The notes beneath the pieces are model-generated. The model saw nothing but the letters and a program-made list of their open reading frames with translations. It did not search any database and had not been told where the DNA came from. 64,000 nt of DNA from Flavobacteriales bacterium UBA1494 (GTDB lineage Bacteria; Bacteroidota; Bacteroidia; Flavobacteriales_E; Vicingaceae): contig CAJJAT010000003.1 of NCBI GenBank assembly GCA_905182175.1, positions 124,001-188,000 of the forward strand, in the 5' to 3' direction. The translations under genes and the position numbers were made by a program. Of this stretch, positions 40,884 to 47,708 are shown piece by piece; position 1 is the first letter of the stretch; the number at the start of each line of letters is the position of its first letter.

Positions 40884-40903
40884 TAAAAGGCAAGTCATTA
40901 GAA

Positions 40904-40939
40904 CAAAAAAAGGGCTGTGAATTTTACAGCCCTTTTTTG
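40904..40939 (+). terminator. Rho-independent terminator after fabI
   Basis: CAAAAAAAGGGCTGT pairs with ACAGCCCTTTTTTG around a seven-base loop. A GC-rich stem top with A-run and T-run flanks makes a strong, nearly symmetrical terminator 20 bases after the fabI stop. Confidence 0.85.
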
Positions 40940-42000
40940 TTGTTGAAATAATTTGCGAGTCACTATTTAGAATCCAGTTTCCATTATTGTGTAGTATTGC
41001 ACCTAATAAATTAGTACATATAAGCAGATAGCGAATGACGAGAATTTATGAGAGGTCTCCTTTATTAAAAGGAAGTTTTCTTGAACTCTAGTACCTGTAT
41101 AAGACGCTTTTGTAATTAACGTTGAGTCTTTTATTAAAACGGAGTAATCCTTTAGGTCAGGTATGAAGTTGAGTGAAATAGAGGGAACAGCAGCAGACGC
41201 AAACAACAGTTAGGTTCTGTTATATTTTTTTAATAAGTAGTGACTTAATAAAAAGTGGTAAGTCAAATTTAACACGGTACTAATTACCGTTGATTTTAAG
41301 AAATATAGAATCATGAATTCTTATATTTTTGTTCATTTTTTTTGTTATAAGACGCTGCAATTCTTCGAGCTATTCTGAACTAAAGACTCCTTGGTCAAAA
41401 ATGAAGCAAACTGACAGGGTGATTTGTTAAAATATGTATCCATTATTTGATTAAACTTCTGTTTAAAGTAAGACGGTTTTTTAAGAATGGGGAAGTACTT
41501 CTTGTCCGTAACACATAATCTAGACTCAATGGGACTCTTAGATAATAGTCTTGACTTTGGTGATTAAATAGAAGTACATGGAGTCTTTGGCTTTTTATAT
41601 TAGCAAACGACTACTTTTAGATAAGCTTTCTTAAGTTTCCATGAATGATTCTTGAGTTCTAATTCCTTTTCACTTAAATTTTCATTCCGATAAGTATAGT
41701 TTAGTTCTTGAAAATGTCGCAGCTAATAGTGTGTTTTAATAAAAATATAACAATTTTGATTGTTTATCGTAGAATGTTTACTGGTTTTTAGAATCAATTA
41801 TTAAGTGTCGCGAGGGTGATATTTAATTCTATTGTGTTAAATTTTTGTAATTACTAATTGGATTAAATCCCTGTTTTAAATTGAATTGGGTAAGTATAAA
41901 TCGTTTTGATTATTAAATTAACAAGGATGAAAATAACAAAACTGAAATTAACTAGTGTACATTATATTATTTTTTACATTAAATAGAGTAAATTAACCGC
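40940..42000. other. Long AT-rich stretch without an intact gene
   Basis: More than a kilobase with no credible gene. Minus-strand open stretches are visible: one at 41003-41206 gives a secreted-looking N-terminus (FASAAVPSISLNFIPDLKDYSV), and one at about 41346-41690 reads ELELKNHSWKLKKAYLKVVV, then, past two stops, KKYFPILKKPSYFKQKFNQI and MDTYFNKSPCQFASFLTKES. I recognise neither. The region borders the decayed phosphorelay locus, so it is likely to be old coding sequence in advanced decay. No RNA gene is seen. Confidence 0.5.
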
Positions 42001-43904
42001 ATGCAAAACTTGACCATATCAGCACCTGAATATGAAGAACAAGCTACTTTTAATAGTTATAAAGTTTTAAAGAACTCTTCTGATTCACTGTTTGATGACT
42101 TAAAGTTAATTATTGCTCAGGTTTGCTCTGCTCCGATAGCTATAATTTCATTTTAGATAATATTAGTCAATGTGTTATATCTAAATTTGGGTTAAATACA
42201 AATGAAATTGTAAAAGATATTTCATCTTGTGGGCATGGTTTCAAAACACCTAGTGCTTTTTTTGAGGTTGAAGATGCTAAGAATGACTCTCGATTTTTAG
42301 ATAACCCCCTAGTTACCGAAAAACTTAATGTCAGCTTTTTTGCTGCGGTCCCGTTGGTTGATTCATCTAATTTAATCATAGGATTTGTATGGGTAGTCGA
42401 TTACAATCCTAAGACTTTGACAGTGAATCAAAAGAAAGCTTTCATTTCTTTGGGGGCAGAGGTAATGAGAAGAATTGAGGTAAAGTTAAAAAATGAATTG
42501 TTAACCTCAGAAATAGAGATAGAAAAAGAATTAGAGGTATCAAAATCGAAGCTCTTTGATCTATACGATGAAACTCCTGTCGTGGTTTTTTCTACTGACC
42601 CTTTTTTCAAAAGAGTTACTAAATGTAATGGAGTAGCTTCTGAGCTTTTGGGTTTTGTTAAAAACGAGATGATTGGAAAAACACTCCTTGATCTATTTCC
42701 CACTTCTGGTGGAGAGAAAATAGAGCAGATTTTAAAGAAAATTATTGAAAAGGGTAAGATTGAAAATTAGCGATTATTAGTAAAAGCTACTAGAGGAAAG
42801 GATATTAACGTAGCTATAAATAGTAAAGCGGTAAGAAACGAAAAAGGAGAAATTATTCATTGCATTTATGGCTTTAACCTGAAAAAAATGGCCAATGAGT
42901 ATGTGAACAGAAAAGTAGGTGCTGTTTTAGGTTACTCTGACAAAGAGATACAAGATTTCGGATCTCGATTACTTCCCACTCTTTGCCATCCCGAAGATCT
43001 GGAGCATGTTCTCGCCCATTTCACTGTAGTGGCAAATTAAGAAGATGACAAAGTAGCGAGCTTGGAGTACCGAATGAAACATAAAGATTTAGAATATCAG
43101 TGGTTACTCTCTGAAGAAACGGTATTTGAGAGAAATGATGATGGTTCTCTGGAGAAGCAACTAGGCGTTGCTACTGATATTACAACATTGAAAAATATAC
43201 AAGCAAGTTTATCTACAAAGACAGAAAAGTTGAAAGTACAAAATGCGGATTTAAAGCAATTAGCTTACGTCGCAACGCACGATTTAAAACATCCAATAGT
43301 TGTACTTCAGGGTCATTTTCATTATTTGAAGAAACAATTTGTACAGCCTTCGGAAGATATCGAGGATTCGATTGAGTTTATTGAAGATGAGATAAAGAAT
43401 TTTAATGTAACGTTAAAGGGTCTAAATGATGCCATTAAAGTAACAGAGTTAAGAATTGAGAAGGTGCCTTTAAATCTAACAGAATTGATTAAAGCAACTT
43501 TGCCTACTTTTAAAAGGCAAGTAGAACAGCTAGGGGGAAAGCTTACCACACGATTATTAGAAAATGTAGTAGTATTTGGAACAACAGTTTACTTTCAAAG
43601 TATTATCCAGAATCTGCTTTCTAATGCTATTGAATATCGATCTTTAACTGAGAAGTTAGAAATTAATATCTCAACAAGTGTTGATAAAAAGGGGCTTATT
43701 TTTAACGTGGAGGATAACGGGTTGGGTATGGACCTTGTTCGGTAAAAAGATAAATTATTTAAAATGTTCAATAACTTTCACCATAATTCTGAGGGCAGTG
43801 GAATGGGACTCTATACGGTGAATAATATGGTAGAGAAAATGGGAGGATCTATAAAAATAGCTAGTGAAATAAATAAATGAACAAAATTAAATTTACTATT
43901 CTAA
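42001..43904 (+). pseudogene. GAF-PAS sensor histidine kinase, broken by a frameshift and four stops
   Basis: An ATG at 42001 opens MQNLTISAPEYEEQATFNSYKVL and VCSAPIAIISF; a frameshift near 42150 then leads into a GAF domain (ISKFGLNTNEIVKDISSCGHGF and VEDAKNDSRFLDNPLVTEKL). One frame continues through a PAS domain, an RxxLxxxD-like link, HisKA (QLAYVATHDLKHPIVVLQGHF, with the phospho-acceptor His) and HATPase (SIIQNLLSNAIEYRS, VEDNGLGMD, and GSGMGLYTVNNMVEKMGGSI). In-frame stops lie at 42768 (TAG), 43038 (TAA), 43743 (TAA) and 43878 (TGA, in the GxGT turn where Gly is expected). The kinase was once a cytoplasmic light- or redox-type sensor with no membrane segment; what it sensed is unknown. 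Confidence 0.9.
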
Positions 43905-43912
43905 ATCGCAAA

Positions 43913-44327
43913 ATGATAGAATTAAATGAAATATTACTAATTGATGACAGTAAGGGTGCAAATGCTTTGAACAAAGGTTACTTCAAGAAATGGGTGTTGG
44001 GAAAAAAATAGCAACTCTATTAAATGGTCAACTTGCGCTATAATATTTAGTTACCAAAGATGTAAATGGCCAATATCCATGTCCGGATATTATTTTTTTA
44101 GTCATAAATATGCCAGTCATGGATGGGTACAAATTTTAGAAGAATATGAGCTCTTGAAACCAAATCAGAAATTGAATAAAGTAATTGTCATGCTTACTAC
44201 TTCAACCAGTGAATTTGACATCGTAAGGGCGAATATAAATGTTGAAGTAAATAATTATCAAATCAAGCCTTTAATAGAAGATAAAGTCTTTGAAATTATA
44301 AACCAAGTGGAAAAATTAGGGCAATGA
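43913..44327 (+). pseudogene. Response regulator receiver domain, decayed, phospho-acceptor lost
   Basis: An ATG at 43913 opens MIELNEILLIDDSKGANALNKG with the acidic pair of a receiver domain. A shift in frame gives LLQEMGVGKKIATLLNG, a stop (TAA near 44040), and then CPDIIFLVINMPVMDGYKF. The expected FLDINMP has Val instead of Asp, so the phosphorylation site itself has been lost. A second frameshift at a stop leads into ILEEYELLKPNQKLNKVIVMLTTSTSEFDI and NYQIKPLIEDKVFEIINQV, with Thr and Lys in their usual places. It overlaps the next regulator gene by four bases (ATGA). Confidence 0.88.
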
Positions 44328-44755
44328 GGAAAGAAATAAACGTTTTATTAATTGATGATAGCAGAGCAATAAATAATAGGAACGAATCATTGCTAAAAAG
44401 TATGACTTTATTTAACGAGATAAACAAATATTCTTATCCAACCGAAGCATTAGATTTTATTAAAAATGAAACTGATGGTGTAGATAACAAGCTATTGCCA
44501 GATTTAATTTTTTTGGATATCAGTATGCCCGGGATGGATGCTTTTGCCTTTTTAGATAAATACTCTAGACTTGATAATGTAGTAGACTCTGATTTCCTGC
44601 CAAAAATAATTATAGTTAGTGATCATTTACTCGAAAACCGGAATCTTGATCATACCAATAAATATAAAACCGTCGGTGTTGTTGATCATATTAAAAAACC
44701 AATGGATAAGGAGGATGTATTGTCTGTTTTGGAGGAACATTTAGACAAATATTAA
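44324..44755 (+). CDS. Stand-alone response regulator (receiver domain), intact
   Basis: A 143-residue receiver-only protein. VLLIDDSRAINNRN holds the acidic pair, LIFLDISMPGMDAFAFLDKY the phospho-acceptor Asp, IIIVSDHLLENRN the Ser/Thr switch, and HIKKPMDKEDVLSVL the conserved Lys. No output domain follows, so it would act by protein contact or as a phosphate relay. It is the third gene of a locus whose kinase and first regulator are broken, and it may now be uncoupled or serve another kinase. Confidence 0.88.
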   Translation: MRKEINVLLIDDSRAINNRNESLLKSMTLFNEINKYSYPTEALDFIKNETDGVDNKLLPDLIFLDISMPGMDAFAFLDKYSRLDNVVDSDFLPKIIIVSDHLLENRNLDHTNKYKTVGVVDHIKKPMDKEDVLSVLEEHLDKY

Positions 44756-44762
44756 GCAGACA

Positions 44763-45092
44763 ATGACAAATCCTTCAATTTTTTCCAAAACAGAGATTTC
44801 CTTAGAATCGTTCAAGGATTTACTTCCCTTTTTTTTCGAGGAAATATGGGAGGATTTCAAGGTGTTAAAACAATTAGATACTTTTAAGGACATTGAGGAA
44901 ATAAGATCTCTCGCTCATAAATTAAAAGGATCTTCTGCTTGCTATGCAGCTAATTTGATGTCAGCAAATGCAAAAGCACTGCAAGATTATGTTGAATCTA
45001 ATAATACAGAACAGACAGAAAAGTTGATAAATGAGTTTGAGAAGTCAATTCAGATTACTCAGGAATATGCTAAAGAATATTTCAATATCTAG
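44763..45092 (+). CDS. Histidine phosphotransfer (HPt) domain protein
   Basis: A 109-residue helical protein. The HPt motif is SLAHKLKGSSACYAANLM with the phospho-acceptor His in AHKLKGSS, near residue 60, and the helices on either side (FFEEIWEDFKVLKQL and SANAKALQDYVE) complete a four-helix bundle. HPt proteins pass phosphate between receiver domains. It lies seven bases after the intact regulator, consistent with a former multi-step phosphorelay. It is intact despite the loss of the kinase. Confidence 0.85.
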   Translation: MTNPSIFSKTEISLESFKDLLPFFFEEIWEDFKVLKQLDTFKDIEEIRSLAHKLKGSSACYAANLMSANAKALQDYVESNNTEQTEKLINEFEKSIQITQEYAKEYFNI

Positions 45093-45157: not shown

Positions 45158-45544
45158 TTATCGCTCTAAATCGATGTAATCTACGAGAACACCGGCCTCA
45201 AAAATAAGTCGACGCTTTTTTACGTCTCTTTTTTTAGGGTCAAAGGAATGGTCAATAAAGATGTTGATTTCACCACTGTACCAAACGGCAAAAACATTTT
45301 CAGGATCTTGAAAAAGATCTTCAATACCCACCATTTTCATATTTTGGTCAAAGCCACCTAATTCAACCAGTTTTAAGCGGTCATTTACAATTTCCCAAAT
45401 ACCAATATAACCCCTTTCGTTCTCTGAAGAGTAGGAGAGGAAAGCATCTTCTATTTCGTGGTGTTGCAAGTATTCTTCCAACGGTTCTTCTTGAAAACTT
45501 AGCTTTCTACCGTTATAAATAAGTAATTCTGAAATTTTTGTCAT
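45158..45544 (-). CDS. Hypothetical protein, 128 residues
   Basis: I do not recognise the family. I chose the ATG at 45544 (MTKISELLIYNGRKLSF); an upstream start adds seven unlikely residues. The protein is acidic and mostly beta (GYIGIWEIVNDRLKLVELGGF, VFAVWYSGEINIFID), with IEDLFQDPENVFAVWYSG near the middle and a basic KKRDVKKRRLIFEAGVLVDYIDLER end. The pattern resembles small cytoplasmic immunity- or SMI1-like proteins found in Bacteroidota, but this is a weak impression. No partner gene is adjacent. Confidence 0.6.
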   Translation of the reverse strand: MTKISELLIYNGRKLSFQEEPLEEYLQHHEIEDAFLSYSSENERGYIGIWEIVNDRLKLVELGGFDQNMKMVGIEDLFQDPENVFAVWYSGEINIFIDHSFDPKKRDVKKRRLIFEAGVLVDYIDLER

Positions 45545-45628
45545 TGCGCTTTGTGAGAGCCGCAAAGTTCATTATAAATTTGAGACTTTCTTAAAAAATA
45601 AAGAGTTTTTTGAAGGTTATTACCGGAC

Positions 45629-47624
45629 CTAAAAGTTGGAAAATTTCGGATATTTAATGTTGTATTTAAACCCAATTCCTTCTTTTCTCCAGGGTTTAAA
45701 GTAAAACTCCAACTCAGTTTTCCTATTTTTTCATTTACAATAGCCCCCTCATAATCGGTGAAATATACGATTACAATTTTCCTTTCAGAAGTCGGGTATT
45801 GGTTCTCTATATTAATCTTTGCAGTGTCACTCTTGGCATTTTTTACGACTAAGTCCCATCCAATATGTTTTTTTATTGAACTGGTATATAATTGTTTTTC
45901 TTCGACTTCTTTGTTGATCTCGCTGCTAGTGCAGATACTCTTCTATCTTCCCAAAGAAATGTTCATTTTATCTTCCAATTGGTCGGCGTTAATTAAAGGT
46001 TACCCAATAAAGATTACTTGTTCGTAGAGGTCCGATTTGCAGGGTATTAAATTTAAGTCTTCCCAGTTGATAATGTTGGTTACTAAAAAAGCATCTTTAT
46101 CAATTTTGGGCACAATGTAATATTCGTAACCAACAAAAATATCTGTCTCTTTAATTTTTAAGTTATATTCCTTGCCGTCTGAAGGTATTGTATAAGGAAT
46201 GTTGATTTTATATTCAAGACTTAAATTACTTCTAGAAACATTTGTCATAGTGTTAAACTCTTCTGTGTCTACATATCTTACGGAAGGTGATATTTTCGAA
46301 TGGTTGTAACCGAACTTTCCATTTGTCACTTCTTCTTTATAATTATGGTAGTATGAGTCATTTTCTTACTAATCGTTCATATTGATACTGACTTCTTCAA
46401 TCGCACTTTTTGGTAAATTAGTACTTCCTATAACTTTTACCCCATCAATAAATGTCACGTTCGAACCACTCCGTTGACCTTTACTAAAAGTCTCTCCACT
46501 GCCATCATCTCTGGATGCAATAACACTCCCTGCTACTTTTGCTATGTCAGCAACTGAACGCACAGCCATTTGACTAATTTTATTTCTTTCAGAAATACCT
46601 TGATAATTAAGAGTAAAACTATTGATTAACATTTTGTTATCGTTAAATCTAACTGAATGAAAAAATTCTTTAGAAAATCAAATATAAGAGGCCTTTAAAG
46701 TATATGTTTCCGGTAGTGTTGGCTTTAAAGTATTGCTTCCGCTAAAATCAGTAGTTGTACTAAGTACGTGATTGTCATTTTTAAGAAGAGCTATTTTTGC
46801 AAATGGGACAGGCTAATTTAAATTACTAGAAACAACTTCTTCAATTGCACCTAAAGAATAATTCAAATTTTCTTCAACCTCCCGATAGGAGGAGTTTGTA
46901 TATGCATTTGCTCTGACGATTATCTATTTTTTGAATTCAAGCTTAACCCTATTAATACCCGGATTGTTTGTAGATAATTTTAGATCTACTTTATTCCAAT
47001 CTTCACCCATACTTGGGAACAAATTCGAGTTGTAAACAATTTTAAGTGGGGATTCAGTATCTTTCAATCTAAAATCATAGCTAGGCGTCCAGCCAGCAGG
47101 TGGTCTCTAGTATTTGATATGAAGCTTCGTTGCTGTGAAGTTTTTGATTCAACAGCGATATATACCTGCTTGTAAGCACTTTTTTTCTTCGATACTGACT
47201 TATTTAAAGCAACATATTTATTTTTAATTTCATCTGTAATTTTTCCTGCCTTATTTGAATATCTATTACACCGTTTCTAACTTCATTTAGCCTCTTCTGT
47301 AAAAATCTGAAGCTAGTTTTAATTCATTTATAGAAACACTTTTTTTTTCCAGAAAATTTACTATTGTTCAATAGGATATTTTATTCCAATCTTAAGAACG
47401 TCATAAGAATTGTACAGTTGGTTAGCGTTTACTTTTAGCTCTTTCACATCAGTCTCAATCTGTTTAGTCTGGTCACTTATTTATGTTGAATTACAGTGCT
47501 TTATTTCGTTTTTTACTGAAAGAATTGTAGATGTCTACATCAGAAACCTTAAGGTAAGTGGATCAATTTGTGCAAAACTGAATTGACTTAAAACGATAAA
47601 TAGGAGTATGGCTACTTTTTTCAT
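45629..47624 (-). pseudogene. DUF4139 (MuiA-like) protein with carboxypeptidase-regulatory and plug-like insert, decayed
   Basis: On the minus strand an ATG at 47622-47624 opens a signal peptide (MKKVAILLFIVLSQFSFAQ). The frame then breaks repeatedly, yet readable segments follow in order: coiled-coil pieces (KQIETDVKELKVNANQLYNS), the DUF4139 core GWTPSYDFRLKDTESPLKIV and FPSMGEDWNKVDLKLSTNN, a carboxypeptidase-regulatory segment (VPFAKIALLKNDNHVLSTTT), a TonB-plug-like segment at 46369-46632 (TFIDGVKVIGSTNLPKSAIE), and the DUF4139 end (SLEYKINIPYTIPSDGKEYN and WEDLNLIPCKSDLYEQVIFI), finishing near KYPKFSNF before TAG at 45629-45631. At least six stops or frameshifts are needed. Confidence 0.85.
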
Positions 47625-47708
47625 GTTTGTTTTTTTTAGTGAAACAATGGGCTGTCTTCAATTTGACACAGAAACATGGGTTTACGTGGCTTCTTTTGTA
47701 AAATGGTT

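Follow-up and report, generated by a model that had tools for sequence, protein, structure and literature searches.

The four genes analyzed here, which encode a histidine kinase, a first receiver (REC1), a second receiver (REC2) and an HPt protein, make up a recently half-decayed phosphorelay operon of known design that was probably inserted at its present site. The kinase and REC1 are pseudogenes, and REC2 and HPt are intact. We tentatively propose, at only a little under an even chance, that the inserted relay lost its input half and that HPt and REC2 are now served in trans, most likely by a kinase-REC1 pair encoded on another contig (C15) of the same genome. If the pair is still used, the locus would be a rewiring intermediate in which the input genes are dying and an HPt hub and a receiver survive through paralogous kinases that depend on them; if it is not used, the locus would be an ordinary half-decayed operon.

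Lesions, ancestral design and insertion site

The window, a stretch of 64,000 nucleotides, lies on contig C3 of the host draft genome (G000; 3.33 Mb in 45 contigs, 96% complete), which was compared with Flavobacteriales MAGs and with Acidiluteibacter ferrifornacis (G006). In it, recN and fabI are followed, after about 1.1 kb, by the four genes in the order kinase, REC1, REC2 and HPt:

40884..42000 (about 1.1 kb), strand not given: no convincing gene; forms the left part of the interval between fabI and the gene at 45158
42001..43912, + strand: kinase pseudogene (soluble GAF-PAS histidine kinase, A type) with a frameshift, four stops and a deletion of about 182 residues
43913..44327, + strand: REC1 pseudogene (receiver 1), frameshifted twice, with a stop at 44041 and Asp replaced by Val at 44101
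44324..44755, + strand: REC2, an intact single-domain receiver of 143 aa with D11, D12, D65, S99 and K125
44763..45092, + strand: HPt, intact and stand-alone, 109 aa, with H52

The kinase starts at the ATG at 42001, reads in the 42001 frame to about 42150 and thereafter in the 42003 frame, where it is interrupted by stops at 42768 (TAG), 43038 (TAA), 43743 (TAA) and 43878 (TGA). A newly recognized lesion, absent from the earlier sequence-only reading, is the in-frame loss of about 182 residues near 42863, which has the same size against the kinases of G006:C20 (L088) and G005:C148 (L033). In terms of the 815-aa G006:C20 kinase, the deletion removes all of one PAS domain (349-434) and the last part of the PAS domain before it. 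The H-box and ATPase motifs are still readable, but the open frame expected of a functional histidine kinase is lost. Recoding or another genetic code for the kinase was excluded, because TAG, TAA and TGA are all present and the gene also has a frameshift. REC1 is spread over three frames (from 43913, from about 43972 and from about 44133 to 44327) and carries one stop (TAA at 44041). Its phospho-acceptor Asp has become Val (GTC at 44101), so that both this residue and the open frame of a receiver (PF00072) are missing. The frameshift and four stops of the kinase, and the loss of frame and phospho-acceptor in the first receiver, had already been claimed from the sequence alone, and each of them stands.

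A second pseudogene in the window, a DUF4139 protein with a carboxypeptidase-regulatory-like part, extends over several frames at about 45570-47700 on the minus strand (DUF4139 match with E 2.5e-13 at 46924-47103) and is an exception among the mostly open genes; the genes that flank it adjoin each other in G003 and G004. In the host genome, another kinase-like stretch (C13:40691-41056) contains two stops, and further signaling genes may therefore be decaying there.

The receiver-only protein and HPt had been described as keeping their catalytic residues and full frames, and residue conservation and Pfam scores agree. REC2 matches Response_reg (PF00072) with 47.6 bits (cut-off 30.2) and retains all five residues listed above; a near-invariant Gly is altered (G73A). 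HPt matches Hpt (PF01627) with 37.8 bits (cut-off 24.6), and its H52, K53 and G56 are invariant across eight homologues. The HPt model consists of four helices (14-40, 44-60, 64-78 and 82-107; pLDDT 93.0), and ranks 1-19 in its comparison with the PDB were all HPt proteins or domains, with E values of only 0.007-0.053 and none below 0.001. The REC2 model (pLDDT 80.5) is receiver-like, with strands alternating with helices. In a search for a promoter of REC2 and HPt, a Bacteroidota-type pattern, which is a weak test because just 3 of 21 control genes carry it, had no match in 42001-44323 (chance 0.17), and a sigma-70 scan remained at chance level, with 23 found against 21.1 expected.

That the ancestral design comprised a kinase, two receivers and an HPt, as first read from the window, is borne out by four-part operons in relatives. 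A first contig scan with HPt alone as the query returned no matches, and a second with the REC2 alignment returned five loci. One operon, in G005 (C148; CAJXRL010000148.1), matches the window in gene content and order and encodes the nearest counterparts found for REC2, HPt and the kinase (REC2 and HPt are 56% and 43% identical to those of the window, a distance that we judge too great for comparing synonymous sites), but its frames are free of lesions, its neighbors are different and the contig ends within its kinase gene. Next to an FKBP gene, G005:C42 (CAJXRL010000042.1) and G002:C27 (JABAZP010000006.1) carry an intact paralogous operon B composed of kinase, RECa, RECb and HPt; these two share the gene content of the window but have intact frames and place the REC2-type receiver first. 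In the receiver tree, the window REC2 forms one clade (100/99) with the G005 REC2, three RECa and the REC2 of G001 and G006:C16, and the dead REC1 forms another (98/95) with the REC1 of G005, G000:C15 and G006:C20. The kinase tree likewise unites the dead kinase with those of G005:C148, G006:C20 and G000:C15 (98/96).

Because only 18 bp separate fabI from the homologue of the conserved 45158 gene in G002 and G004, an empty site in two relatives, the four-gene operon would most simply have been inserted between these genes in this lineage rather than lost elsewhere. At the same place G003 has two other ORFs, different genes follow fabI in G001, and the fabI region of G005 is out of view because its contig ends within recN. 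A search for flanking repeats that would mark a mobile element found only short, two-copy, chance-like repeats around the operon.

Constraint or chance survival of REC2 and HPt

An explanation that deserves considerable weight, if less than an even chance, is that the inserted operon is dead as a whole and that REC2 and HPt have merely not been hit so far. The decay would be recent, as the dead kinase still shares 55% identity with its G005:C148 homologue over 346 residues, much as REC2 does (56%). The neighboring DUF4139 gene is also a pseudogene, and G003 and G004, which belong to the same genus (84% and 91% complete), gave no REC2 match and no HPt match. The difference in lesions itself, eight disabling ones across about 765 codons of kinase and REC1 against none in 252 codons of REC2 and HPt, has a binomial probability of 0.10. 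We also simulated neutral decay, with the divergence set from five stops at about 0.048 substitutions per site (3-7 stops would correspond to 0.029-0.067), and the neutral probability of acquiring neither stop nor frameshift was 0.20, 0.12, 0.07 and 0.04 at 0.03, 0.04, 0.05 and 0.06 substitutions per site, with 0.33 at 0.02 and 0.01 at 0.08. These values leave room for chance survival, but the probability falls to 0.11, 0.05, 0.02 and 0.01 over the range 0.03-0.06 when eight active-site codons (REC2 D12, S13, D65, S99 and K125; HPt H52, K53 and G56) must be kept as well.

For relative rates, we counted changes unique to the window against changes unique to G005, one pair of counts per outgroup. 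The kinase gave 46:24 (G006, p 0.01), 23:24, 25:24, 21:11, 30:16, 26:21 and 28:21, and the reframed REC1 gave 12:12, 18:11, 17:7 and 14:4. The counts were 14:11, 12:10, 11:12, 14:7 and 14:13 for REC2 and 7:5, 6:9, 8:11, 10:7, 7:7 and 10:10 for HPt. As a control, 300 residues of RecN were about even with the distant outgroups G001, G006 and G007 (18:22, 16:11 and 13:11); the RecN counts with G002, G003 and G004 (39:15, 39:14 and 33:14) are skewed, which we read as these genomes probably being closer to G005. A second control, a 297-aa protein, gave 9:3 (G004) and 6:6 (G007).

Maximum-likelihood tip lengths for the window and G005 were 0.526 and 0.275 in the kinase (window longer in 20 of 20 bootstraps) and 0.559 and 0.310 in REC1 (19 of 20). 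The REC2 tips (0.505 and 0.254; 19 of 20) show a twofold acceleration like that of the dead genes, as expected if the pair were a remnant, but HPt shows no acceleration (0.607 and 0.748; window longer in 3 of 20 bootstraps), which argues against that account. Based on the relative rates and tip lengths, HPt looks as constrained as its G005 relative and REC2 as relaxed as the dead genes, although this pattern is not decisive. Deviations at highly conserved columns, window against G005, numbered 11 and 10 of 59 in the kinase, 21 and 19 of 63 in REC2, and 4 and 3 of 14 in HPt; this comparison is without power, because even the dead kinase shows no excess.

Relay parts elsewhere in the host genome and supply in trans

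A whole-genome profile search with stops read through detected two Hpt matches in the host, the window HPt and one within a 946-aa hybrid kinase on C2. No stand-alone HPt other than that of the window was found, and the 96% completeness leaves room for another. Two further loci carry relay parts. On C15, an RsbQ-like hydrolase is followed by a 373-aa PAS kinase and REC1, an intact pair, and neither REC2 nor HPt lies beside them in the 9 kb read. The hydrolase matches Bacillus subtilis RsbQ (1wom) with E 3.3e-85, stands directly before the kinase and receiver (L040 4249-6799) and, at E <= 1e-30, is present in one of 46 family genomes.

C27 holds the host's own copy of operon B, which has kept its 673-aa kinase and RECb. 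In RECa, of the REC2 type, the frame shifts by one base within an A7 run directly after the ATG (L032 6640-6665); this shift could be real, a sequencing error or a slippage site. An HPt is not recognizable in the 326 bp at its expected place, where both syntenic relatives have one (the corresponding stretches of operon B in these relatives measure 375 and 361 bp), and the best tblastn match to HPt remains in this gap, 14.2 bits, was not above 100 gap shuffles (medians 13.9-14.2). This HPt may either have decayed beyond recognition or have been deleted, because a permissive blastn alignment runs through the gap against G005 operon B (62% over 904 columns) and stops over the HPt part against G002.

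From the contents of C15 and C27, the parts missing there are therefore the parts kept in the window, REC2 and HPt. This complementary fit alone is weak, because two four-gene operons with four losses would retain one copy per role at random with a probability of 16/70 = 0.23. Partner choice resides in the kinase dimerization domain, and identity to the G005 A-type kinase in this domain is 25/75 for the C15 kinase, 21/75 for the C27 kinase, 25/75 for that of G001:C51 and at most 25/75 for kinases outside the A clade, a comparison that does not single out one partner.

Judging from the protein families, phosphate in the ancestral relay would have passed from kinase to REC1, HPt and finally REC2. 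With its kinase and REC1 dead, the operon no longer has an input half of its own, and the output half that it kept, if expressed, would most likely take phosphate in trans from the C15 kinase and REC1 of the same clade. Having no HPt of its own left, the C27 kinase perhaps also feeds the window HPt. Between continued use in trans and a mere lag in decay, we slightly favor use. Points that would speak for it are the single stand-alone HPt, a same-clade C15 kinase and REC1 lacking REC2 and HPt, a C27 operon lacking HPt, split relays elsewhere, the clustering of intact REC2-type receivers with an HPt, the HPt tip without acceleration and the freedom of 252 codons from lesions. Plain remnants also accord poorly with the inventory, in which two modules without these parts persist and no other stand-alone HPt with an intact REC2-type receiver turned up. 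Against use in trans, we would count the acceleration of REC2, its G73A change, the chance of neutral survival, the low dimerization-domain identity, the random expectation for the complementary fit, the lack of a promoter match in a weak scan and the room for an unseen HPt at 96% completeness; the C15 kinase may also work with its REC1 alone.

It is possible, though we think it unlikely, that two or three paralogous relay operons decayed complementarily and left one working relay scattered over the genome, with input from C15 and/or C27 and output through the window REC2 and HPt. If true, this would be a natural partition of subfunctions and a rewiring caught in progress. It is distinctly improbable that the pair is kept only for the C27 operon, by reciprocal loss between paralogous operons, or is fed by the C2 hybrid kinase: C27 does retain a kinase and RECb without the parts that the window retains, but its kinase and receivers fall in clades other than those of the window kinase and REC1, the single-base frameshift in its RECa may be a sequencing error, and the C2 hybrid carries its own HPt domain. 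Finally, an assembly or sequencing artefact, conceivable in a draft of 45 contigs, has a negligible probability, and sequencing error is a very unlikely source because one 2.3-kb stretch contains eight lesions of several types (among them three frameshifts and stop codons of all three kinds), together with a large deletion and the change of a catalytic residue, in a window whose surrounding genes are mostly open.

Comparison with other relays

A relay divided between loci, as we propose for the host, has a natural parallel in Acidiluteibacter ferrifornacis, in which an A-type kinase and REC1 without HPt are encoded at C20 and REC2 and HPt apart at C16; rewiring in trans at the window locus is plausible. 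The C16 locus consists of a SpoIIE phosphatase, a 117-aa ORF that is receiver-like by eye, REC2 and HPt (L038 2011-4474), and the SpoIIE-type phosphatase hints that the relay output there meets a partner-switching system. G001:C35 encodes HPt and REC2 on the other strand from its kinase and REC1. REC2-type receivers (profile score at least 171) occur in 7 of 22 loci; six of them are intact and share a cluster with an HPt, directly adjoining it in four cases and separated from it by a single receiver in the other two. The remaining one is that of C27. The 22 loci were partly picked for HPt or receiver matches, so this count is not unbiased.

A search of the literature, judged by titles, found none on this kind of operon decay in Flavobacteriales. 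The stand-alone HPt proteins LuxU and HptB resemble the window HPt in sequence profile and fold, although the latter scores below the NCBIfam LuxU cut-off (25.6 of 140 bits). Spo0B is not known to belong to the HPt family. The Spo0 phosphorelay is likewise a four-protein relay, remodeled through its kinases, and, unlike that of the window, it ends in Spo0A (PMC6136694). A further published parallel is the reported action of HpaS on VemR, an orphan regulator with a single domain (PMC7036368).

Surviving partners of broken signaling genes have been described in two other systems. In Francisella, kinase and regulator pseudogenes coexist with surviving partners, and KdpD is reported to act in a cascade with QseB/PmrA; the excerpted account deals with classical two-component pairs and includes no HPt protein, whereas the window has one (PMC6584805). 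In Yersinia pestis, a frameshift-broken rcsD gene leaves a small HPt protein, RcsD-Hpt, that still takes part in the phosphorelay (PMC10191623). RcsD-Hpt is the tail of the broken protein and was demonstrated experimentally, whereas the window HPt is the product of a separate gene and is known from sequence (PMC10191623).
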